DNA of 64,000 bases from Baekduia alba (GTDB lineage Bacteria; Actinomycetota; Thermoleophilia; Solirubrobacterales; Solirubrobacteraceae), in NCBI RefSeq assembly GCF_028416635.1, contig NZ_CP114013.1, positions 992,001 to 1,056,000 on the forward strand, given 5' to 3'. The notes under the pieces were generated by a model. That model had not been told where the DNA came from, did no database searches, and saw only the letters and a program-made list of their open reading frames with translations. This document shows positions 284 through 21,199 of this stretch, in pieces. Each line of letters opens with the position of its first letter. The first letter of the stretch is position 1. The position numbers and the translations under genes are program-made.

Positions 284-310
284 GGAAGGCCCCGGTTTGC
301 GGGGCCTTCC
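284..310. terminator. Probable native terminator of the tRNA-Val gene, displaced by integration
   Basis: Perfect 11-bp inverted repeat (GGAAGGCCCCG / CGGGGCCTTCC) with a 5-nt loop, ending 3 bp before the 45-bp attL repeat. The tRNA is transcribed leftward, so before integration this hairpin would have stood directly downstream of it. The element now carries its own hairpin at the equivalent place next to attR (21097-21117). No long U tract is seen. Confidence 0.6.
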
Positions 311-312
311 AG

Positions 313-357
313 GATGGGCGCGGCGGGTTTCGAACCTGCGACCTCTCGCGTGTGAAG
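313..357. repeat. attL: 45-bp direct repeat of the tRNA-Val 3' half
   Basis: Identical base for base to 21126-21170. It covers the anticodon loop, variable region, T arm and 3' acceptor strand of the leftward tRNA, plus two flanking bases. The match ends abruptly at 358 (GACGAGG against CGAGCGC at the right end), which marks the crossover limit. Confidence 0.9.
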
Positions 358-562
358 GACGAGGACGATCAGGGCGAAACGCCCGGGAACGCTGAAGAAC
401 ACGGGGGATAGGGGCTGGGCGCCCTCGTTGGATGCTGCCGAATCGTGGGCGATATCGGCGGATACGGGCACCGAGCCCGGCCCAGTGCCCGTTGCGCCAT
501 GACTTACATCTATCGCCCGCGCTCCTTCCTACGCTTGCTTCCGGGGCTCTGCTGAGGGGCGC

Positions 563-640
563 GTGGCGACTGAGATCCGGACGGCGGCGGGCGGGATCAT
601 CATCGCGGTCGTCTCGTACGGGGTGCCCAACGGCGAGTAG
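563..640 (+). CDS. Possible 25-residue hydrophobic peptide
   Basis: GTG start at 563 with a GAGGGG stretch just upstream. It encodes a 25-residue peptide starting VATEIRTAAGG, with a central IIIAVVSYG segment, then TAG. The composition suits a small membrane or leader peptide. The rest of 358-800 shows no convincing gene. A TAGAAT at 713-718 may be a -10 box for the gene at 801. There is no homology evidence, so this is a weak call. Confidence 0.25.
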   Translation: MATEIRTAAGGIIIAVVSYGVPNGE

Positions 641-800
641 TCTGCCGGTCCGGCTAGGACGGTCGTCCGCTGGACGTCAACTTATCCGTGTACAGGGCCG
701 ATCCTGTTCAGATAGAATGACACTCACGCGATGGAGCCCATAGTCCGGCCGTCCGCAGTACCCAAGGCCTCGCAGGACGACGAAGCCGCAGGATGACGTT

Positions 801-1250
801 ATGAGCACCACCGAACTCGCGAGCCCGCCACGGCCAACTGAGGAGACCCCGGAGCACGGGGTCATCTCTATCGGCGACGTGACCCTGTCGCAGGTCGTCC
901 ACTGGATGGAGCACGATCTGTTCGTGTTCCGGTCGACGGAGTTCGATGTGATCGCCGCCGACGAAGACCTTCAGACGGCAATCCGGGCGTTCGTCGAGAG
1001 CGCACAGGACTACGCGCGCATGGTGGGCGATCTCGGCGCCGACGAGCTCACACAGGATGAGGCAGAAACCGCCTTGCTGATCTACCGCCGGCTCAACGAC
1101 GCCTACCAGGGCATCGCGGCTGACCTGCGCGCAAGATTGGCACATCGCGTACGAATCGTTAGCATTCTGCGCAAGCGCGGCCACGACGCGCCCCGCTCGT
1201 GGTACCGCAAGTCCTCACTGCCGACCTCATCGCCGCAGCCACACGGCTAG
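801..1250 (+). CDS. Hypothetical element protein, 149 aa
   Basis: ATG with AGGA 8 nt upstream. The acidic protein is mainly helical in pattern: residues 20-45 hold VTLSQVVHWMEHDLFVFR, followed by alternating Ala/Asp/Glu helices to about residue 115. The last 35 residues are basic and overlap the next gene. I recognise no domain. It is the first clear gene inside attL and lies on the same strand as the next gene, overlapping it by 52 bp, so the two are probably co-transcribed. The unusual basic tail could mean that true translation ends differently. Confidence 0.6.
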   Translation: MSTTELASPPRPTEETPEHGVISIGDVTLSQVVHWMEHDLFVFRSTEFDVIAADEDLQTAIRAFVESAQDYARMVGDLGADELTQDEAETALLIYRRLNDAYQGIAADLRARLAHRVRIVSILRKRGHDAPRSWYRKSSLPTSSPQPHG

Positions 1251-5426: not shown

Positions 5427-5761
5427 AGCGCCAGCGCATGACGCAGACCGCCCGGGTCGAGCAGCTCCTGCGCCGACGCGGCGAGCTGGGCATCACCGCG
5501 GCGGACTTCCTGCTGCCCGACGTCGCGGACGGCGGCCCGCCCATCCTGCGCTTGGCCGCCCGCGTGGACGAGCTCCGTTCGCGTCACGGCGTGACGATCG
5601 TGACGCTGTTCGAGCACAAGGGCGACGCGCGCGTCGCTCGGTATGTGCTGCGGGAGCAGCACTTCGTCACGGCGTCCATGCCGGTCAACGCGCCCGATGC
5701 CTCGGACCAGCTGCTGGCGCCGCCCCCGAGGTCCGCCGTGTTGGGCTGGGAGGAGGCGTGA
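5423..5761 (+). CDS. Winged helix-turn-helix protein (HTH_39-like)
   Basis: 112 aa from ATG 5423, with ATGA overlap to the previous frame. Residues 8-60 (VEQLLRRRGELGITAADFLL then LRLAARVDELRSRHGVTIVT) have the layout of the small phage/ICE winged-helix domain found near replication genes: helix, spacer, RLAARVDELR recognition helix, beta wing. It is probably a DNA-binding accessory of the replication block. Its stop overlaps the next GTG start (GTGA at 5758). Confidence 0.65.
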   Translation: MKRQRMTQTARVEQLLRRRGELGITAADFLLPDVADGGPPILRLAARVDELRSRHGVTIVTLFEHKGDARVARYVLREQHFVTASMPVNAPDASDQLLAPPPRSAVLGWEEA

Positions 5762-5991
5762 TTACCTCGCTCAGCGTCGCGGAGGCGCGGGCGCAGATCC
5801 TGCACGCCGCGCTGCTCAAGAGCCCCGCAGCCACGTGCGTCGACGACCTGCCGCGGGCTCTGCCGGAGTTCGCACGCTGGCGGCCCGACATCCTCGGCGC
5901 CGCGATCGCCGACCTCGTCGCCGACGGCCGCATCACCGAGAGCCCGGCCGGACGACTCCGGGTCCACGTCGTCGAGGAGCCAACCTCATGA
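5758..5991 (+). CDS. Small helical/winged-helix protein, 77 aa
   Basis: GTG start at 5758 within a GTGA overlap, with GGAGG upstream. The sequence includes SVAEARAQILHAALLKSPAA and then LGAAIADLVADGRITESPAG followed by RLRVHVVEE. The helix-helix-wing order suggests a second small winged-helix protein in tandem with the first. Specific family not recognised. It overlaps the ATPase start by ATGA (5988), so the three genes are translationally linked. Confidence 0.6.
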   Translation: MITSLSVAEARAQILHAALLKSPAATCVDDLPRALPEFARWRPDILGAAIADLVADGRITESPAGRLRVHVVEEPTS

Positions 5992-7166
5992 GCCCGCTGG
6001 TCGACGGCGGCGCGTTCATCCTCGACGCACCCGAACACGTGCCGGCGGTCTGGGGAGACGAGGGCAACGGCGTCCTCTGGGCCAAAGGCGAACCGCTCCT
6101 GCTGTGCGGACCGCCCGGTGTCGGCAAGTCGACGCTGATCCAGCAGGTCATGCGCGCCCGGATGGGGCTCTTCGGCGACCTCGAAGTGCTCGACCATATC
6201 GTCGCCCCGAGCACCAAGCGTGTGCTGTACCTCGCCTGCGATCGCCCCGCGCAGATCGCTCGCTCGATGCGACGCCTGTTCCGTCCCGAGCATCGAAAGA
6301 TGGTCGGCGAGCTTCTCGTCGTCTGGCGCGGGCCGTTGCCCTACAACCTGGTCGACAACCCCGGTCAGCTCGCGCTCGACGCCGCCGCCCAGGGCGTCGA
6401 CACCGTCATCATCGACAGCCTCAAGGACATCGCCTCGCCGCTCACCAGCGACGAGGTCGGCTCGGCCGTCAAGGCGTGCATGGCCGCGCTCAACGAGGCC
6501 GGCATCGAGGTCTGCGCCCTCCACCATCAGCGCAAGGCCAACGGGGACAACAAGAACCCGGACAAGCTCGAAGACGTCTACGGGTCGACGTGGATCACCG
6601 CGGGAGCCGGCAGCGTCCTGCTCCTCAAGGGCCAGGCCGGAGACGCCGTCGTCGAGCTCAAGCACCTCAAGCAGCCCGCAGACGAGGTCGGGCCGCTGAC
6701 GGTCGTCCACGACCACGCCACCGGCACGAGCACCGTGGAGCGCGAGCGCAGCATCCGAGACGTCCTCGCGGCCGAGTGGCGCCTCACCGCTCCCGAGGCG
6801 GCGGCCATCCTCCACGGGCCCACACCGAGCCGCAACGTCGTCGAGAAGGTCCGCCGCAAGCTCGACAACCTCGTCGCCAACGGCGTCGCCTACAAGGACC
6901 CGCCAGCGGCGCCGCGAGCGCCCATCACGTACGTCTACTCAGCAGACGACCGTGCAGAGCGTGCAGAGGACCGTGTAGCTACACGGTCGCTACACGGTCC
7001 TGCACGAACCCCTAGGGATCCGCTGCACGATGACTACACGGCACTGCACGCCGACGCTGCAACCCGCCCCAACCCCCTTAAGGGGGCGGGTGCAGCAGAA
7101 CGTGCAGAGACCTCGACTCCCGTTAGCGCCCTCACCGCCGACGTCTTCGCCGAGGAAGCCGCATGA
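5988..7166 (+). CDS. RecA-type (AAA_25/RepA-like) replication ATPase
   Basis: 392 aa. Walker A GPPGVGKST at residues 41-49, Walker B DTVIIDS at 138-143, then a KxxHxxR-like ALHHQRKANGDN segment (about 170-185) typical of hexameric RepA/DnaB-family ATPases. Residues 250-310 look like a C-terminal winged helix (RDVLAAEWRLTAPEAAAILH, VVEKVRRKLDNLVANGV). The last ~75 residues are low-complexity and overlie a cluster of repeated hexamers (6952-7107). It probably acts as the element's replicative helicase or loader in the cytoplasm. No primase is seen beside it. Both flanking genes overlap it by ATGA. Confidence 0.8.
   Translation: MSPLVDGGAFILDAPEHVPAVWGDEGNGVLWAKGEPLLLCGPPGVGKSTLIQQVMRARMGLFGDLEVLDHIVAPSTKRVLYLACDRPAQIARSMRRLFRPEHRKMVGELLVVWRGPLPYNLVDNPGQLALDAAAQGVDTVIIDSLKDIASPLTSDEVGSAVKACMAALNEAGIEVCALHHQRKANGDNKNPDKLEDVYGSTWITAGAGSVLLLKGQAGDAVVELKHLKQPADEVGPLTVVHDHATGTSTVERERSIRDVLAAEWRLTAPEAAAILHGPTPSRNVVEKVRRKLDNLVANGVAYKDPPAAPRAPITYVYSADDRAERAEDRVATRSLHGPARTPRDPLHDDYTALHADAATRPNPLKGAGAAERAETSTPVSALTADVFAEEAA
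6952..7107. repeat. Iteron-like cluster inside the 3' end of the ATPase gene
   Basis: In 156 bp there are four GTGCAG (6952, 6961, 7090, 7102), three CTGCAC (7000, 7023, 7044) and four CTACACGG/CCGTGTAG units (6971, 6979, 6990, 7034). The cluster includes the perfect 18-bp palindrome ACCGTGTAGCTACACGGT (6970-6987). A 14-bp palindrome CCCCCTTAAGGGGG (7073-7086) is nested in a larger hairpin (7057-7095). The encoded protein tail is correspondingly low in complexity. It is a candidate replication origin. Confidence 0.55.
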
Positions 7167-8703: not shown

Positions 8704-9434
8704 CCGAGATCGAGACACGTCAGGGCCGTCGCAGCAGCGGCGAGATCCTCGCGCACCTGATCGGGCTGATCCAGCCGCAAGGGCGCCGCGGGTGGGTCGA
8801 GCAGTCCGAGCACCCTTGGCTGGAGCCGCTCCGGGAGCGTCACGAAACGGCGGTGCGTGGTCGGGTCGTCGCGTTGATGCAGGTGCCGGCGACGCTCGCC
8901 GCTCTCCAGGACGAGGACGCCGTGTTCGCCGACGGGTACCACGCGTGGTTGCGGGAGCGTCGCCGTGCGCTGGTGGAGGGGCGGGTGATCCCGCCCGGTC
9001 CGCGCGGGCTGACCGACCAGGAGCGTCGGGGCCGGCTGGACGAGGCCTGGTCGACGGTGGCGGAGGCCCACGGGCGGCTGGCGAGTGTGGTCGACGAGGT
9101 CGGGCGCACGCTGCTTGCGCATCTCGACGAGGTCGAGCGGACCTACCTCGCTCAGCATCGGATGGCGGCGTCGTCGGCCTGGAGTCAGACCAACGTGTCG
9201 CGTCAGTGGTTCGTCAGCGCCGTGGATGACGCTCAGAGCGGTGTGCTGGCGCACGCCGTGGCTGAGATCCGCGACTTCGCGACGTCGTGGCGGCCGGACT
9301 TCGCGTCGCCCGAGCGGCAGACGTCCTCTTCGCTCGATGTTCCCGCGTCGGCGATCACCACCACCTTGCCGCCCGGGCGCGCGTACGCCCCCGCGCCCTT
9401 CCAGGGCGTTTATGGGCTCGGAGCGTCCCGGTGA
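8700..9434 (+). CDS. Hypothetical helical phage protein, 244 aa
   Basis: GTG start at 8700 (GTGA overlap). Mostly long amphipathic helices: a start with GEILAHLIGLIQPQG, a central RLDEAWSTVAEAHGRLASVV and LLAHLDEVERTYLAQHRMAA, and a Pro-rich C-terminus with AYAPAPFQGVYGLG. Position between a TerS-like and a scaffold-like gene suggests a head-assembly or portal-adjacent role, but the length and lack of motifs argue against a portal itself. I do not recognise the family. Confidence 0.55.
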   Translation: MTEIETRQGRRSSGEILAHLIGLIQPQGRRGWVEQSEHPWLEPLRERHETAVRGRVVALMQVPATLAALQDEDAVFADGYHAWLRERRRALVEGRVIPPGPRGLTDQERRGRLDEAWSTVAEAHGRLASVVDEVGRTLLAHLDEVERTYLAQHRMAASSAWSQTNVSRQWFVSAVDDAQSGVLAHAVAEIRDFATSWRPDFASPERQTSSSLDVPASAITTTLPPGRAYAPAPFQGVYGLGASR

Positions 9435-9466
9435 CCAAGATCATCAACAACAGAAGGAGCAACAAC

Positions 9467-9973
9467 GTGCCGTCCTCAACTACTCGGCGCCGAATCGAGG
9501 TGTTCACCGGCCCAAACGGCGAGCCGGCGCCACGCCCGGTGACGGTCGTGACCGCCTCAGCGGCCGACTTGGCGCCGCGACTCGGTCTTCCCGCGACGGC
9601 ATCGACAGGCGATGTCGTCGCAGCCCTTAGCTCCACCCACGCAAGTTCTACAACTACGAAGGAGAACGACGTGCCCACCCCCATCACCACAACCGGCTGG
9701 TTCCCGCAGCTCGACGAAGCATCGGCTGCGATCGACGGTGCCGAAGCCGCACGGCGTGACCGGATCGTCGCGGCCGCGGCCGACGCTGGCAAGATCACGG
9801 CGACCGACACGGGCCGCACGAGCTGGCGTGAGGCGTTCGACGAGGACCCCGCCGGCACCGAGCGGCTGCTGACGGCCTCCGCCAGCAACGGCGGCCTCGC
9901 GGCGGCGAAATTCGCGCCCACGGGCCAACCGACGAGCACCGGCCTGTTCCCGCATCTGGACGAGGTGGCGTGA
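9467..9973 (+). CDS. Scaffold-like protein resembling the C-terminus of Mu gpI protease/scaffold
   Basis: I chose GTG 9467 (AAGGAG 7 nt upstream); an earlier in-frame GTG (9431) overlaps the previous stop. The central segment DLAPRLGLPATASTGDVVAA and the later RIVAAAADAGKITATDTGRT, then WREAFDEDPAGTERLL, follow the pattern of the scaffold end of Mu-type head proteases. No protease domain is present. A second AAGGAG plus GTG occurs in frame at 9671 and would give a 100-residue inner product, reminiscent of nested protease/scaffold genes. The assignment is inferred from pattern only. Confidence 0.5.
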   Translation: MPSSTTRRRIEVFTGPNGEPAPRPVTVVTASAADLAPRLGLPATASTGDVVAALSSTHASSTTTKENDVPTPITTTGWFPQLDEASAAIDGAEAARRDRIVAAAADAGKITATDTGRTSWREAFDEDPAGTERLLTASASNGGLAAAKFAPTGQPTSTGLFPHLDEVA

Positions 9974-13627: not shown

Positions 13628-14425
13628 ATGCCTGGAACCCCTTCCGCGAAGTGGAGCCTGCCGACGATGGCAGGCACCGACATCGCCAACACCATCGACG
13701 AGTACACGGTCGCGCTAACTGGCGCGATCGATCCCTTGCTTGCGCCCGTCGATAGCGGTCCGCTCGCCAGCCGTCCGCCCTCGACGGCGCCATCTCCTGG
13801 CAAGCTCGGACGCCACTACTACGCCACCGACCTCGGCGTCACGTTCCTGGACTACGGCACCGGATGGATCGCGCTGAACGAGCCCATCGGCAACGTCACG
13901 TGGTGGGCGGGCGCTGGCGCGCCGAGCGGCGGCACACACGTCGAAGCCAACGGCCAGGCCATCAGCCGCAGCACCTACCCGCTGTACATGAGTCTCATCG
14001 GAACCTTGCACGGCGCCGGGAACGGCTCTACGACCGTCAACGTCCCGGACCTCGTGGGCCGTACGGCCGTTGGTCGCGACCCATCGGCGACGCGTATCCC
14101 TAACAACCCGCGCGCTGTCGGCCAGGGCGGCGGCGAGGAACGCCACCTGTCGACAGCAGCCGAGTCCGGCGTCAACGGCAACGGCAGCACTGGAAACGAC
14201 ACGCCGGACCACACTCACGGCCTTGGCGGCACCGCGCTGCGCGACAGCGCAAGTTTCCAGAACTGGCAGCTTCCCGGTGGCGCGGGTCGTGAGATCGAGC
14301 AGTTCTCCGCGACCGCTGGCGCTTCGACGCGCCACACGCATCCGCTGATCGCTCGCAACGCCGACGCGGCCCACAACAACATGCAGCCCTATCTGGCGCT
14401 GACCCCGATCGTGCGGGTGGCCTGA
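13628..14425 (+). CDS. Phage tail collar fibre
   Basis: 265 aa with TAGGAG before ATG. After an N-terminal attachment region (about 1-85) comes the tail-collar fold: GNVTWWAGAGAPSGGTHVEA, NGQAISRSTYPLYMSLIGTL, then GSTTVNVPDLVGRTAVGRDP, the classic P-D-L-R/V-G-R-x-x-x-G motif (about 140-155). The C-terminus has HTHxH-type metal-binding repeats (DHTHGLGG, RHTHPLI) and ends NMQPYLALTPIVRVA, as in T4-like and prophage fibres. It is the most secure phage structural gene here. Confidence 0.9.
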   Translation: MPGTPSAKWSLPTMAGTDIANTIDEYTVALTGAIDPLLAPVDSGPLASRPPSTAPSPGKLGRHYYATDLGVTFLDYGTGWIALNEPIGNVTWWAGAGAPSGGTHVEANGQAISRSTYPLYMSLIGTLHGAGNGSTTVNVPDLVGRTAVGRDPSATRIPNNPRAVGQGGGEERHLSTAAESGVNGNGSTGNDTPDHTHGLGGTALRDSASFQNWQLPGGAGREIEQFSATAGASTRHTHPLIARNADAAHNNMQPYLALTPIVRVA

Positions 14426-15427: not shown

Positions 15428-15619
15428 CCGCCGACTGTAAACCCCTCACCGGTCGCGCCGGCGCGACGTCGGACGAATGGCGACGCCCACTGCTAAGCAC
15501 TCTCGCCTCTCGTGCAAGCCACCCCTGGTGCCCGATCGTCCGGCGCAGCCGGCGCCGGCGGCGACACCGCTGGCGCTGGTTGTGGGTCGCTGCCCGATCG
15601 GTGCCCGCAGGAGGCGTCG

Positions 15620-15946
15620 ATGCGTGAGCTCGGGCGTCGACTACGCGCGGCGTGGCGAGTGCTGCGTCACGGCGACGAGAGCACGGCAGCCGGCAGCGCG
15701 AGGGACCAGGTGGTGGTCTCGATGGAGGAACTTGATGAGCTGGTCGGCCCGACATCCTCGGCGCCGGCCTGCCCGAGCGCTGGCACCGGACGGCGACATC
15801 AGAGCAGCTCGCAGCGATCGCCACTGCGGCGAACTGCGCTCGCGGGCTCCGCGCGACCGAGTGGGTCGATGTCGAGGCTGGACGATGGCCTGCCACGGCG
15901 CCAGCGGCTGAGCAGCCGGGCGCGTGAGCTTGCGAAACGCTCTTGA
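15620..15946 (+). CDS. Hypothetical protein, copy 1, probably frameshifted
   Basis: AGGAGG 6 nt before ATG 15620. The first ~41 residues (MRELGRRLRAAWRVLRHGDE ... MEELDELV) are convincing, but after about 15738 another frame (15739-15927) gives the more natural RPDILGAGLPERWHRTATSE, then QLAAIATAANCARGLRATEW. This suggests a frameshift joining the two, or two overlapping genes. The defect is identical in copy 2, so it predates the duplication. No family is recognised. It precedes the regulator promoter. Confidence 0.45.
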   Translation: MRELGRRLRAAWRVLRHGDESTAAGSARDQVVVSMEELDELVGPTSSAPACPSAGTGRRHQSSSQRSPLRRTALAGSARPSGSMSRLDDGLPRRQRLSSRARELAKRS

Positions 15947-15972
15947 CACGCCAGTGCCATATATGGCACTAT
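15943..15972 (+). promoter_or_regulatory. Promoter with 18-bp palindromic operator for the RHH gene (copy 1)
   Basis: Consensus -35 TTGACA at 15943-15948. After an 18-bp spacer the -10-like CACTAT lies at 15967-15972. The perfect palindrome AGTGCCATATATGGCACT (15953-15970) fills the spacer and overlaps the -10 box. The GTG start of the ribbon-helix-helix gene follows only 6 nt after the -10, so the transcript is probably leaderless and self-repressed. Confidence 0.7.
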
Positions 15973-15978
15973 GTGGTC

Positions 15979-16125
15979 GTGGCGAAAGGGAAGACTCAGG
16001 TCCGGATGCCGCCGGCACTTCACGAGCAGCTCGAGCAGCGCGCCGCCGAGCAGGGCGTCTCGCTCAACAGCTTGATCGTGAACTTGCTCGCTGGCGGTGT
16101 CGGGTTCAAGCTCCCACCCGCCTGA
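15979..16125 (+). CDS. Ribbon-helix-helix (Arc/HicB-type) regulator, copy 1
   Basis: 48 aa from GTG 15979, chosen because it lies directly behind the promoter; no Shine-Dalgarno is present, consistent with leaderless translation. The N-terminal strand KGKTQVRMPPALHEQLEQRA followed by AEQGVSLNSLIVNLLAGGVG is a complete RHH fold (strand, helix A, turn, helix B). It probably binds the palindrome at 15953-15970 and controls the downstream operon (HhH protein, two small proteins, excisionase, integrase). No toxin partner is adjacent. Confidence 0.8.
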   Translation: MAKGKTQVRMPPALHEQLEQRAAEQGVSLNSLIVNLLAGGVGFKLPPA

Positions 16126-16193
16126 CCAACACATATAAGTCGGCCCCGCGCGGTTGCACCCGCCGGGGCCACGTCCCAAGGAGCAGTCACTCC

Positions 16194-16721
16194 ATGAGCA
16201 ACTACCACGGTACCGACCCGTCCGGGTCGAACGACCACACGCCCGACCACATCGCCATCGAGGCGGCCGAGGGCATCACCGCGTTCGAGCGACTGCTCTC
16301 CCGCAGCGCCAAGCCCGCCGAGTCCGTGTGGACGCTGGAGGGACGCGTCGCTCAGACGATCAGCGAGCACGCGTACGCCGCTGCGCACGAGCTGCCAGCC
16401 GAGTCCGAGCTGCGCGCGCAGCTGCTCGACCAGGCCGAGGACTGGCTCCTGTTCGCGTCAATGCGCGGCCAGACGCGCTACGACCAGTTCGACGAGGCTC
16501 AGCGCCTCTCCAAGGGCGAGAACGGCATCTGGACCTGGGAGGCCCTTCCGCTGGAGCTGCGACGGACGTTCTACAACGAGCGTGTCTACACCATCGACGA
16601 GGTCCGCGAGATGGCCGCCGACCGCGAGCTGCAGTCCATCAACGGCGTCGGCCCCGCACGCGAGCGTCAGATCCTCGAGGCGCTCGCCGCCACCGACGCC
16701 AACCAGGACTGGCTGCGATGA
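16194..16721 (+). CDS. Helix-hairpin-helix protein, copy 1
   Basis: 175 aa from ATG 16194 with AAGGAG 8 nt upstream. The N-terminal half is helical (ITAFERLLSRSAKPAESVWT, EDWLLFASMRGQTRYDQFDE). The C-terminus holds one HhH unit, LQSINGVGPARERQILEALA (about 147-166), a non-specific DNA-backbone binding motif. Such a protein inside an integration operon could assist excision, replication or DNA bending. The family is not otherwise recognised. It overlaps the next start (ATGA). Confidence 0.7.
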   Translation: MSNYHGTDPSGSNDHTPDHIAIEAAEGITAFERLLSRSAKPAESVWTLEGRVAQTISEHAYAAAHELPAESELRAQLLDQAEDWLLFASMRGQTRYDQFDEAQRLSKGENGIWTWEALPLELRRTFYNERVYTIDEVREMAADRELQSINGVGPARERQILEALAATDANQDWLR

Positions 16722-16933
16722 CCGCGACCCTCATCGCCTTTCCCGGTGGGCGGTCACGTACCGTCGGGGAATGGGAGGCCGCCGCCGAACTCGCGGCCGC
16801 AGACGCGATCGATCGCTTCCTCGGATCGAACCCCTGCCCGGTGCCGGGTCTCAGCCAGGTCGCCATTGATCTCGCCGAGTGGGCGGCCCGCCTCCGAAGC
16901 GATGCCGGCGCACGCAGAGCAGAGGCTCGCTGA
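16718..16933 (+). CDS. Small hypothetical protein (71 aa), copy 1
   Basis: Begins in an ATGA overlap with the HhH gene. It reads MTATLIAFPGGRSRTVGEWE, then helices AAELAAADAIDRFLGSN and LSQVAIDLAEWAARLRSDAG. No recognised domain. The tight overlaps on both sides (ATGA, TGATG) mean it is made stoichiometrically with its neighbours. Confidence 0.6.
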   Translation: MTATLIAFPGGRSRTVGEWEAAAELAAADAIDRFLGSNPCPVPGLSQVAIDLAEWAARLRSDAGARRAEAR

Positions 16934-17115
16934 TGGCCCTTCTCACCACCCCTGGGCGCCTGCGCCGCCTCGCCGCCGAGTACGACCAGGCGGCCGCGCA
17001 CCTGCGCAGCGCAGCCGAGGTCGTCGAGCACGATCCGGAGAACCCCGACGTCGACAACATCATCAACACGATCGTCGAGCGCTTCCCCGCGCTCGACAGG
17101 GCTGGAGGCGCCTGA
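16933..17115 (+). CDS. Small hypothetical protein (60 aa), copy 1
   Basis: Starts in a TGATG overlap. The sequence MALLTTPGRLRRLAAEYDQA followed by AAHLRSAAEVVEHDPENPDV and NIINTIVERF is helical with an acidic hinge and may be a small dimerising accessory factor. No family is recognised. It is directly followed, with overlap, by the excisionase. Confidence 0.6.
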   Translation: MALLTTPGRLRRLAAEYDQAAAHLRSAAEVVEHDPENPDVDNIINTIVERFPALDRAGGA

Positions 17116-17309
17116 TGCTGCATGACCCCGACAACGAGCCGGAGGCCTACGTCAACCGTGACGAGATGGCCCGCCGGCTCGGCGTGAGCGTGAGCCTGGT
17201 CGACCAGATGGTGGCCCGGAATGAGATCCCGAGCGTGACGTGGGGGCGCCGCACGCGGCGGTTCCTGCCCTCGGAGGTCATCGCCGCCCTCAAGGAGCGT
17301 GACACCTGA
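17115..17309 (+). CDS. xis: Excisionase (HTH_17/MerR-like), copy 1
   Basis: 64 aa from ATG 17115. RDEMARRLGVSVSLVDQMVA followed by IPSVTWGRRTRRFLPSEVIA is the standard excisionase helix-turn-helix plus wing (about 15-57). It sits directly before the integrase with an overlapping stop/start, the usual xis-int order. It would bend attachment-site DNA and favour excision. In this copy it is followed by a truncated integrase, so dosage of Xis to functional Int may be raised to 2:1. Confidence 0.8.
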   Translation: MLHDPDNEPEAYVNRDEMARRLGVSVSLVDQMVARNEIPSVTWGRRTRRFLPSEVIAALKERDT

Positions 17310-18211
17310 TGCCCCGTCGATCGACCGGCCAGGTCATCCCGAAGGAGACGCAACGCGGCACCGTGTACGCCCTGCGATTCCGCGCCTACGGCCAGCGCCG
17401 CTACGTGACGATGCCCGACGGCACGTCCGAAGATCAGGCGCGTCGCGAGCTGGCCTACATCCTGCTGCAGGTCGAGCGCGGCGAGTGGGTCCCGCCGGCG
17501 GCGGTCGAGGTCGAGCTGCCGCCGGATGACCCGACGTTCCACGTGTTCGCGTCGGAGTGGTGGGCGGCGAAGAAGCTCACTGTGCGCCCGAACACCGTCA
17601 ACGCGTACGAGAACGAGCTGACGGTGCACCTGCTGCCGTTCTTCGCGCGGCACCTGCTCTCGCAGATCACCGTGGCGGAGGTCGACCGCTACCGCGAGCA
17701 CAAGGTCCGCGAGGGCCGCCTCGGTGCCGACACCATCAACAAGACGCTCACGCGCCTCGGCCAGATCCTCGATGTCGCTGAGGAGCGTGGTCTCATCGAC
17801 CGCAACCCGCTGCGGGTCAACCCGCGCAACCGCAAGCTCCGTGTCGCGAAGAAGCGGCCGGTGTACCTCGACACCGCCGAGCACATCACCGCGCTCCTGC
17901 AGGCGGCGAGCGAGGTCGACGCGACGAAGGGTGCACGGACGTCGGGCCGGCGCGCGCTGATCGCCACGCTCGTCTTCTCGGGGCTCCGCGTCAGCGAGGC
18001 GTGCGAGTTGCGTTGGCGCGATGTCGACCTCGCCGGCGGCCGCATCACGGTCGGCAAGGCGAAGACCGATGCCGGCAGCTACCGCGAGGTCGACATCCGG
18101 GCCGTCCTCCGCGACGAGCTGCTCGCGTACAAGGCCGGTCGTCGCGCTCGTCAGGTCGAGCGCGACGCCTTGGTGTTCCGATCGGTGCCCGCAGGAGGCG
18201 TCGATGCGTGA
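17309..18211 (+). pseudogene. Integrase copy 1, truncated by the duplication junction
   Basis: Residues 1-290 equal the intact integrase (19893-21188). At the junction (18177/18178) the frame continues for ten foreign residues (RSVPAGGVDA) to TGA. The arm-binding and core-binding domains and the first catalytic Arg (R227) are kept. The His-x-x-Arg, second His and nucleophile Tyr are lost. It cannot recombine, but if made it could still bind arm sites and interfere with the intact enzyme. Confidence 0.9.
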
Positions 18212-18530
18212 GCTCGGGCGTCGACTACGCGCGGCGTGGCGAGTGCTGCGTCACGGCGACGAGAGCACGGCAGCCGGCAGCGCGAGGGACCAGGTGGTGG
18301 TCTCGATGGAGGAACTTGATGAGCTGGTCGGCCCGACATCCTCGGCGCCGGCCTGCCCGAGCGCTGGCACCGGACGGCGACATCAGAGCAGCTCGCAGCG
18401 ATCGCCACTGCGGCGAACTGCGCTCGCGGGCTCCGCGCGACCGAGTGGGTCGATGTCGAGGCTGGACGATGGCCTGCCACGGCGCCAGCGGCTGAGCAGC
18501 CGGGCGCGTGAGCTTGCGAAACGCTCTTGA
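18204..18530 (+). CDS. Hypothetical protein, copy 2, probably frameshifted
   Basis: Exact duplicate of 15620-15946, including AGGAGG, the convincing first ~41 residues and the same frame change after residue ~41. Here it overlaps the 3' end of the truncated integrase frame by 8 bp, so it may be translated from the xis-int1 message, unlike copy 1. Confidence 0.45.
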   Translation: MRELGRRLRAAWRVLRHGDESTAAGSARDQVVVSMEELDELVGPTSSAPACPSAGTGRRHQSSSQRSPLRRTALAGSARPSGSMSRLDDGLPRRQRLSSRARELAKRS

Positions 18531-18556
18531 CACGCCAGTGCCATATATGGCACTAT
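18527..18556 (+). promoter_or_regulatory. Promoter/operator for the RHH gene (copy 2)
   Basis: Identical to 15943-15972: TTGACA at 18527-18532, palindrome AGTGCCATATATGGCACT at 18537-18554, CACTAT at 18551-18556, then GTG after 6 nt. The element therefore has two operator sites for the same repressor. Confidence 0.7.
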
Positions 18557-18562
18557 GTGGTC

Positions 18563-18709
18563 GTGGCGAAAGGGAAGACTCAGGTCCGGATGCCGCCGGC
18601 ACTTCACGAGCAGCTCGAGCAGCGCGCCGCCGAGCAGGGCGTCTCGCTCAACAGCTTGATCGTGAACTTGCTCGCTGGCGGTGTCGGGTTCAAGCTCCCA
18701 CCCGCCTGA
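18563..18709 (+). CDS. Ribbon-helix-helix regulator, copy 2
   Basis: Exact duplicate of 15979-16125 (48 aa, leaderless GTG). It heads the only operon that ends in an intact integrase. With two genes and two operators, repressor dosage and operator number rise together. Confidence 0.8.
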   Translation: MAKGKTQVRMPPALHEQLEQRAAEQGVSLNSLIVNLLAGGVGFKLPPA

Positions 18710-18777
18710 CCAACACATATAAGTCGGCCCCGCGCGGTTGCACCCGCCGGGGCCACGTCCCAAGGAGCAGTCACTCC

Positions 18778-19305
18778 ATGAGCAACTACCACGGTACCGA
18801 CCCGTCCGGGTCGAACGACCACACGCCCGACCACATCGCCATCGAGGCGGCCGAGGGCATCACCGCGTTCGAGCGACTGCTCTCCCGCAGCGCCAAGCCC
18901 GCCGAGTCCGTGTGGACGCTGGAGGGACGCGTCGCTCAGACGATCAGCGAGCACGCGTACGCCGCTGCGCACGAGCTGCCAGCCGAGTCCGAGCTGCGCG
19001 CGCAGCTGCTCGACCAGGCCGAGGACTGGCTCCTGTTCGCGTCAATGCGCGGCCAGACGCGCTACGACCAGTTCGACGAGGCTCAGCGCCTCTCCAAGGG
19101 CGAGAACGGCATCTGGACCTGGGAGGCCCTTCCGCTGGAGCTGCGACGGACGTTCTACAACGAGCGTGTCTACACCATCGACGAGGTCCGCGAGATGGCC
19201 GCCGACCGCGAGCTGCAGTCCATCAACGGCGTCGGCCCCGCACGCGAGCGTCAGATCCTCGAGGCGCTCGCCGCCACCGACGCCAACCAGGACTGGCTGC
19301 GATGA
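18778..19305 (+). CDS. Helix-hairpin-helix protein, copy 2
   Basis: Exact duplicate of 16194-16721, with the same AAGGAG ribosome site and the same C-terminal HhH unit at residues ~147-166. It lies in the operon with the functional integrase. Confidence 0.7.
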   Translation: MSNYHGTDPSGSNDHTPDHIAIEAAEGITAFERLLSRSAKPAESVWTLEGRVAQTISEHAYAAAHELPAESELRAQLLDQAEDWLLFASMRGQTRYDQFDEAQRLSKGENGIWTWEALPLELRRTFYNERVYTIDEVREMAADRELQSINGVGPARERQILEALAATDANQDWLR

Positions 19306-19517
19306 CCGCGACCCTCATCGCCTTTCCCGGTGGGCGGTCACGTACCGTCGGGGAATGGGAGGCCGCCGCCGAACTCGCGGCCGCAGACGCGATCGATCGC
19401 TTCCTCGGATCGAACCCCTGCCCGGTGCCGGGTCTCAGCCAGGTCGCCATTGATCTCGCCGAGTGGGCGGCCCGCCTCCGAAGCGATGCCGGCGCACGCA
19501 GAGCAGAGGCTCGCTGA
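19302..19517 (+). CDS. Small hypothetical protein (71 aa), copy 2
   Basis: Exact duplicate of 16718-16933, again in ATGA and TGATG overlaps with its neighbours. Function unknown. Confidence 0.6.
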   Translation: MTATLIAFPGGRSRTVGEWEAAAELAAADAIDRFLGSNPCPVPGLSQVAIDLAEWAARLRSDAGARRAEAR

Positions 19518-19699
19518 TGGCCCTTCTCACCACCCCTGGGCGCCTGCGCCGCCTCGCCGCCGAGTACGACCAGGCGGCCGCGCACCTGCGCAGCGCAGCC
19601 GAGGTCGTCGAGCACGATCCGGAGAACCCCGACGTCGACAACATCATCAACACGATCGTCGAGCGCTTCCCCGCGCTCGACAGGGCTGGAGGCGCCTGA
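19517..19699 (+). CDS. Small hypothetical protein (60 aa), copy 2
   Basis: Exact duplicate of 16933-17115, overlapping the excisionase start. Function unknown. Confidence 0.6.
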   Translation: MALLTTPGRLRRLAAEYDQAAAHLRSAAEVVEHDPENPDVDNIINTIVERFPALDRAGGA

Positions 19700-19893
19700 T
19701 GCTGCATGACCCCGACAACGAGCCGGAGGCCTACGTCAACCGTGACGAGATGGCCCGCCGGCTCGGCGTGAGCGTGAGCCTGGTCGACCAGATGGTGGCC
19801 CGGAATGAGATCCCGAGCGTGACGTGGGGGCGCCGCACGCGGCGGTTCCTGCCCTCGGAGGTCATCGCCGCCCTCAAGGAGCGTGACACCTGA
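19699..19893 (+). CDS. xis: Excisionase, copy 2
   Basis: Exact duplicate of 17115-17309 (HTH plus wing, WGRRTRRF). Its stop overlaps the start of the complete integrase, so this is the copy coupled to functional recombination. Confidence 0.8.
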   Translation: MLHDPDNEPEAYVNRDEMARRLGVSVSLVDQMVARNEIPSVTWGRRTRRFLPSEVIAALKERDT

Positions 19894-21188
19894 TGCCCCG
19901 TCGATCGACCGGCCAGGTCATCCCGAAGGAGACGCAACGCGGCACCGTGTACGCCCTGCGATTCCGCGCCTACGGCCAGCGCCGCTACGTGACGATGCCC
20001 GACGGCACGTCCGAAGATCAGGCGCGTCGCGAGCTGGCCTACATCCTGCTGCAGGTCGAGCGCGGCGAGTGGGTCCCGCCGGCGGCGGTCGAGGTCGAGC
20101 TGCCGCCGGATGACCCGACGTTCCACGTGTTCGCGTCGGAGTGGTGGGCGGCGAAGAAGCTCACTGTGCGCCCGAACACCGTCAACGCGTACGAGAACGA
20201 GCTGACGGTGCACCTGCTGCCGTTCTTCGCGCGGCACCTGCTCTCGCAGATCACCGTGGCGGAGGTCGACCGCTACCGCGAGCACAAGGTCCGCGAGGGC
20301 CGCCTCGGTGCCGACACCATCAACAAGACGCTCACGCGCCTCGGCCAGATCCTCGATGTCGCTGAGGAGCGTGGTCTCATCGACCGCAACCCGCTGCGGG
20401 TCAACCCGCGCAACCGCAAGCTCCGTGTCGCGAAGAAGCGGCCGGTGTACCTCGACACCGCCGAGCACATCACCGCGCTCCTGCAGGCGGCGAGCGAGGT
20501 CGACGCGACGAAGGGTGCACGGACGTCGGGCCGGCGCGCGCTGATCGCCACGCTCGTCTTCTCGGGGCTCCGCGTCAGCGAGGCGTGCGAGTTGCGTTGG
20601 CGCGATGTCGACCTCGCCGGCGGCCGCATCACGGTCGGCAAGGCGAAGACCGATGCCGGCAGCTACCGCGAGGTCGACATCCGGGCCGTCCTCCGCGACG
20701 AGCTGCTCGCGTACAAGGCCGGTCGTCGCGCTCGTCAGGTCGAGCGCGACGCCTTGGTGTTCACGACCGCGGCCGGCACCGCGCGCGACAAGGACAACGT
20801 CCGCTCGAAGGTGCTCGCGCCGGTCGTCGCCCGCGCCGGCAAGATCCTCGCGGCGGCCGACGCGATGCCGCTGCCGGTCGGCGTGACCTCCCACAAGCTG
20901 CGGCACACGTTCACGTCGATCCTGTTCGCGCTCGGCGAGGACGCGCCCTACGTGATGGGTCAGCTCGGGCACGCCGACCCGAAGTTCACGCTGCGCGTCT
21001 ACGCCCACGTGATGCGCCGCGGCGACGACGAGCGGGCCCGGCTGAAGGCCCTCGTCGAGGGCGCCGAATGGGCACCATTGGGCACTAAGACGGAAACGGC
21101 CCCCGAGTCGGGGGCCGAGATTCCTGATGGGCGCGGCGGGTTTCGAACCTGCGACCTCTCGCGTGTGAAGCGAGCGCTCTCCCACTGA
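19893..21188 (+). CDS. int: Tyrosine integrase (intact copy)
   Basis: 431 aa. Arm-binding N-terminus (about 1-65, RGTVYALRFRAYGQRRYVTM), SAM-like core-binding domain (about 78-165) and catalytic domain with R227, H334-x-x-R337, H360 and Y370 (LRVYAHV). It integrates the element at tRNA-Val together with Xis. The frame does not stop inside the element: it runs through the 45-bp attR repeat (GRGGFRTCDLSRVK) and ends five codons later, antisense within the tRNA gene. After excision the same frame would instead end with DEDDQGETPGNAEEHGG encoded beyond attL. The tail is beyond the catalytic Tyr, so both forms may be active. Confidence 0.95.
   Translation: MPRRSTGQVIPKETQRGTVYALRFRAYGQRRYVTMPDGTSEDQARRELAYILLQVERGEWVPPAAVEVELPPDDPTFHVFASEWWAAKKLTVRPNTVNAYENELTVHLLPFFARHLLSQITVAEVDRYREHKVREGRLGADTINKTLTRLGQILDVAEERGLIDRNPLRVNPRNRKLRVAKKRPVYLDTAEHITALLQAASEVDATKGARTSGRRALIATLVFSGLRVSEACELRWRDVDLAGGRITVGKAKTDAGSYREVDIRAVLRDELLAYKAGRRARQVERDALVFTTAAGTARDKDNVRSKVLAPVVARAGKILAAADAMPLPVGVTSHKLRHTFTSILFALGEDAPYVMGQLGHADPKFTLRVYAHVMRRGDDERARLKALVEGAEWAPLGTKTETAPESGAEIPDGRGGFRTCDLSRVKRALSH
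21097..21117. terminator. Element-borne terminator next to attR
   Basis: CGGCCCCC pairs with GGGGGCCG around GAGTC. It lies within the integrase tail on the plus strand but directly downstream of the leftward tRNA-Val. It therefore replaces the tRNA's own terminator (284-310) that integration moved ~20.8 kb away. Confidence 0.6.
21126..21170. repeat. attR: 45-bp direct repeat
   Basis: Identical to 313-357. It overlaps both the integrase 3' coding sequence and the 3' half of the intact tRNA-Val, so the element's crossover region is coding on one strand and tRNA on the other. Confidence 0.9.
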
Positions 21189-21199
21189 GCTACGCGCCC
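21128..21199 (-). tRNA. tRNA-Val (anticodon CAC)
   Basis: 72 nt read leftward: 7-bp acceptor GGGCGCG/CGCGCCC, D arm GCTC/GAGC, anticodon arm CTCGC-TTCACAC-GCGAG (anticodon CAC), five-base variable region and T loop TTCGAAA, discriminator A. CCA is not encoded. The T stem GCAGG/CCCGC has one A-C mismatch as I read it. It is the attachment site of the element; the integrated state keeps it whole because the 45-bp repeat restores its 3' half. Confidence 0.92.

Follow-up and report, generated by a model that had tools for sequence, protein, structure and literature searches.

The integrase gene of a tRNA-Val prophage runs across its own attachment core: evidence that the excised-state tail may be a selected coding sequence in related elements

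Background

The integrase of the Myxococcus phage Mx8 was reportedly studied by Tojo (1996) and by Magrini (1999). In this phage attP is part of int, which acquires a new 3' end on integration; the integrase is not inactivated by this, but its specificity is modified (PMC6070905). Mycobacteriophage BPs carries attP inside its repressor gene: the products of virus and prophage differ at the C-terminus, and the prophage form is stable (PMC4557955). In the suicidal archaeal integrases of the SSV type the att site is also found inside the integrase gene (PMC8371274), and the part of the Islander paper considered here makes provision for integrases whose gene spans attP, with Mx8 and SSV as examples (PMC4383910). 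An attP placed within a gene, with a change of the C-terminus upon integration, is a known principle represented by Mx8, BPs and SSV. Here we describe a prophage of Baekduia alba in which the att core, a fragment of tRNA-Val, lies inside the reading frame of a tyrosine integrase, and we compare the two ends of this protein with those of related elements.

Results

The stretch of DNA analysed, called the window, comprised 64,000 nucleotides (chromosome 992001-1056000; genome of 5.86 Mb in one contig) with a GC content of 72%. An exact 45-bp direct repeat, 313-357 being identical to 21126-21170 (chance expectation 0.00), bounded a prophage of 20.8 kb (Table 1). The position of the tRNA-Val called by ARAGORN on the minus strand implies that the core consists of the 3' 43 nt of the tRNA plus 2 nt. 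The locus thus presented the features of a prophage with a tRNA-targeting tyrosine integrase, i.e., a tRNA, a tRNA fragment, int beside the tRNA and phage genes in between; the stop of the excisionase-like HTH gene overlaps the start of int. The hairpin next to the right core is most likely a replacement terminator, supplied by the element to the restored tRNA-Val; read on the other strand, it corresponds to the integrase codons just before the core. The hairpin left of the left core would be the displaced terminator or the terminator of a neighbouring element. A terminator would provide a DNA-level reason for the integrase codons before the core, but none for 358-411.

Table 1 Features of the prophage and its attachment cores (window coordinates)
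Feature	Position	Strand	Basis or remark
Left hairpin GGAAGGCCCCGCAAACCGGGGCCTTCC, left of left core	284..310	-	52-nt flank folds at -31.1 kcal/mol; role putative
Left att core, tRNA-Val 3' fragment	313..357		45-bp repeat; no tRNA called there
Excised-state tail DEDDQGETPGNAEEHGG + TAG (409-411), reached in circle only	358..411	+	frame reading
Helicase	5643-7166		phrog_6012, E 2.4e-84
Head maturation protease	9287-9973		between the cores
Tail collar protein	13628-14425		between the cores
Likely excisionase-type HTH protein, 64 aa	19699..19893	+	phrog_66 excisionase match, ORF 19330-19893, E 5.8e-7
Tyrosine integrase ORF, 431 aa, integrated form, ending GRGGFRTCDLSRVK then RALSH and stop	19893..21188	+	PF00589, E 1.8e-17; phrog_1, E 1.2e-57
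Right hairpin GGCCCCCGACTCGGGGGCC	21098..21116	-	67-nt flank folds at -35.9 kcal/mol; role putative
Right att core, within both integrase 3' end and tRNA-Val	21126..21170		45-bp repeat
tRNA-Val (CAC), target, restored by the element's core	21128..21199	-	ARAGORN
Integrated-state tail RALSH + TGA, antisense to tRNA-Val	21171..21188	+	frame reading

The integrase reading frame contains the att core and continues beyond it, and the claim of the preliminary description that the frame crosses a 45-bp core was correct to the base. A codon boundary of int coincides exactly with the end of the core (AAG, 21168-21170). In the integrated state the next codons are CGA GCG CTC TCC CAC TGA and the protein ends SRVK-RALSH; that this end is antisense to the tRNA-Val, as had been proposed, was borne out. 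When 21170 is joined to 358, the frame continues GAC GAG GAC GAT ... GGA TAG, giving a protein of 443 aa with the C-terminus SRVK-DEDDQGETPGNAEEHGG, and both the coordinates and the acidic 17-residue peptide previously predicted for this join were right. The excised tail has a net charge of -7. In the window, random open frames had a median length of 69 codons and a mean net charge of +2 to +3, and the probability of a charge of -7 or lower among them was about 0.001, a value to be read with the caveat that acidity is why the tail drew notice. We know of no degradation tag that DEDDQGETPGNAEEHGG resembles. Likeness to solved recombinases stops at about residue 389, and the C-terminal swap occurs 40-50 residues beyond, outside the conserved catalytic fold. 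As judged from the reading of both joins, integration would swap the C-terminal residues and leave the catalytic domain whole, the domain matches ending upstream of the core.

Four copies of the tRNA-Val core stood in tandem, at chromosome positions 967422, 979119, 992313 (window 313) and 1013126 (window 21126), so that at least three segments share one tRNA and the element is the last of them. With the extra cores at 967422 and 979119, three cores are candidates for the attL partner; we took the nearest core (313-357), the element's own left end, as the natural one. If either of the two remaining left cores were used for excision, the frame would end in the tail RSEARTEVPQ or in a basic tail of 115 residues, so that the acidic tail depends on the nearest left end. 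Two segments, those that end at 979119 and 992313, have the motif GGCCAACGTTTCGGCCAAAGCAGGG in common before the core. Directly after core 979119 (L013:7303-8517, chromosome ~979303-980517) there is the N-terminal half of another integrase, ~38% identical, followed by unrelated sequence, either a remnant or a fusion. Within the prophage, an exact 2584-bp tandem duplication (15594-18177 and 18178-20761), due to a recent event or to an assembly error, takes in the excisionase-like gene together with several small ORFs and two thirds of int, counted from its start. Of the two int copies, the first (17309-18211, 300 aa) is truncated and without the catalytic tyrosine, whereas the second is intact. 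The truncated copy and the four tandem cores with an integrase remnant beside one of them are what a fixed or rearranged prophage of a tandem array would present, one that no longer excises and whose excised tail is never made. We regard this as quite unlikely, given the intact second int copy, the identity of the nearest two cores over 45 bp and the excisionase-like gene directly upstream of int.

Other arrays were observed in the genomes compared. Tandem tRNA-Val cores a few kb apart, with ~140 bp of post-core DNA conserved at 70-90%, occurred at loci L144-L148 (G085, G086 and G087), where no in-frame integrase of the window's group was found. At L163 (G167:C41) four tRNA-Val cores in 4.2 kb were each followed by similar DNA, and at L170 (G191:C99) a truncated integrase was fused directly to the tRNA-Val core. 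In G170 a second 28-bp tRNA-Arg fragment lies at chromosome ~1608061, 800 bp left of attL.

Searches in 146 genomes of the family gave no homologue of the window tail (358-411), and for window 340-860 the only matches were very short (25-48 bases), with none among phages. IMG/VR contigs with the tRNA-Val core contained no in-frame integrase of the window's group, and the integrase search of genome contigs returned distant matches only. Free-phage relatives with a visible attP were also sought; the best phage records, ~24-30% identical, were not close enough to be matched with this attP.

Related integrases were drawn from the family and the order with their surroundings read, several loci coming from draft assemblies. 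Among 37 integrases with a tRNA close by, 12 reached into the tRNA, two of them ending within the core itself, and 25 stopped before it. A stop before the att core in relatives had been named as an observation that would speak against a role of the tail; it was found in many of them, including an integrase of the same genome, 51% identical, whose stop is 15 bp short of its tRNA-Pro. The feature is thus optional, and the enzyme family needs no state-dependent tail. Where the frame does enter the tRNA, antisense tails were present at several tRNAs (Val, Met, Gly, Arg and Asp).

Each crossing integrase was paired with its left core, giving eight elements, counted as six independent, whose excised frames always closed within 1-27 codons (17, 16, 16, 16, 14, 7, 27 and 1 residues). 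Net charges were -7 for the window, -2 for each of the 16-residue tails (G018 A, G018 B and G226), -2 for the 14 residues of G197, +2 for the 7 residues of G001 at tRNA-Met (RGSGPSR), -3 for the 27 residues of G097 at tRNA-Gly, and -1 for the single D of G170 at tRNA-Arg. Compared with 37 control left ends, where the frames had a median length of 43-51 codons, the excised frames were shorter (Mann-Whitney P 0.0025; six independent elements), and tails of at least 7 residues were more acidic than comparably short control frames (P 0.0025); these tests were devised after the pattern had been noticed, and the independent elements are few. The expectation of an acidic tail past attL in relatives stood as regards early closure, a mostly acidic charge and the residues kept in one group, but the acidic stretch as such varies (+2 in G001, a single D in G170). 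The related proposal that the tail reports the integration state is supported in that the C-terminus must change if excision joins the element's own cores; the acidic stretch is not conserved, and a sensing or regulating role of the tail is hypothetical.

A different account is that the tail is a neutral by-product: int would simply run into an abutting tRNA-derived attP, and any short tail would be tolerated in either state, with no function. The many relatives that stop before the tRNA, the large differences of the tails between groups, the end of the recombinase similarity near residue 389 and the variety of tRNAs with antisense tails agree with it. The excised frames, however, differ from control frames in their earlier closure and greater acidity, and one subgroup keeps its tail residues with synonymous change (see below), so that we consider this account possible but somewhat unlikely.

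In this subgroup the left ends of G009, G018 (two) and G226, i.e., three genera of two families, had tails of equal length, 16 residues, all ending in QGxLF followed by the stop: RDGGDGNVPSGQGTLF, RDDGDGGQPPEQGRLF, RDEGVDAQPPEQGRLF and RDEGMGEVPPEQGRLF. Three of the four had been met before the pattern was used, and only that of G226 was found by it. An excess of synonymous changes was confined to the integrase frame (P 0.005 with four tails, 0.011 with three, and 0.03-0.04 without G226), with none in the other two frames or in a control group whose post-core DNA is conserved; the N/S ratio over the whole 16 codons was just moderately low (0.24-0.84). Beyond the core-specific pattern, no QGxLF tail was found in 389 class genomes, a sample without the three known carriers, nor in viral contigs. 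Some of the integrases with the conserved tail are broken: that of G018 A is truncated, that of G226 is represented by its C-terminal part only, and that of G018 B matches in separate pieces (one match with an in-frame TAG). For G009 the left end was considered apart from the matching integrase end. In a tandem pair of G018 (L081 ~9822, G018:C91:49822) the frame of the upstream integrase continues past the shared core into the following element's left end, whereby the QGRLF tail is kept even while integrated.

Among the QGxLF left ends, Blast similarity is lost 55-57 bases beyond the core, directly behind the stop codon. Since the attP arms lie in these 55-57 bp beside the core, the sequence past the left core could have been kept as DNA, as an arm-binding site of integrase or excisionase, and not as protein. 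This we hold to be very unlikely: substitutions favour synonymous positions of the integrase frame alone, the stop codon alternates between TGA and TAG while the length is kept, the control group has no synonymous bias, and repeated arm-type words do not stand out in the attP arms of the window. Taken together, the early stops, the acidic bias and the synonymous excess suggest that the excised-state tail of the relatives behaves like selected coding sequence, and for the QGxLF group the evidence of selection on the excised-state protein is modest but specific.

QLxLF is a sliding-clamp motif that is C-terminal in many transposases (PMC4549789). The QGRLF and QGTLF ends of the relatives retain in form its Q1, L4 and F5, which makes QGxLF a candidate sliding-clamp motif, taken as a lead only; a candidate hydrophobic degron is equally possible. 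The motif, with Q1, L4 and F5 at the very C-terminus, was absent from the window tail.

Discussion

On the evidence of frames and substitutions, we think it somewhat probable that the prophage has its attP inside the 3' end of int and that the excised-state tail is a selected coding sequence in this integrase group. In the free circle int would run through the tRNA-derived core into a short tail encoded by the element (17 residues, charge -7), and recombination with tRNA-Val would exchange this tail for the constant RALSH, encoded antisense to the tRNA. Selection would keep the stop in all sampled cases and the residues in one subgroup; a tail kept in this way probably belongs to the protein made while the element establishes itself and once it has excised. 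This presumes that the element of the window still excises and that both proteins are made, and the swap may alter stability, partner binding or activity, by analogy with Mx8 Int and the BPs repressor. It seems unlikely that a group of tRNA-targeting prophages and islands encodes in the circle a selected, state-reporting tail (in one subgroup ending in QGxLF) that integration removes, with the partners or lifetime of the enzyme changing without a regulator.

If the tail is functional, recombination itself would reprogram the recombinase, a direction control without an extra gene. The test of early closure and residue conservation on the excised frame is applicable to all tRNA-crossing elements, and its wider use would show how often the annotated C-terminus of an integrase is the wrong one.

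As in Mx8, the att core of this element lies inside int and C-terminal residues would be replaced upon integration; unlike in Mx8, the attP is a tRNA-Val fragment, and the exchange, of a 17-residue tail for one of 5 residues, is predicted from sequence. In BPs the gene with attP is the repressor, here it is the integrase, and a role of the window tail as a degradation tag, such as a BPs-type switch would call for in the virus form, is hypothetical. Integration of SSV splits the catalytic gene in two; here the catalytic part is whole and only the end changes. With the tRNA islands of the Islander type the element shares a tRNA fragment plus an intact tRNA, a tyrosine integrase and tandem arrays, and selection on an excised-state tail is no topic of the part of that paper considered here (PMC4383910). 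What the present comparison would add to these systems is statistical evidence, drawn from relatives, pointing to selection on a tail that only the circle encodes.
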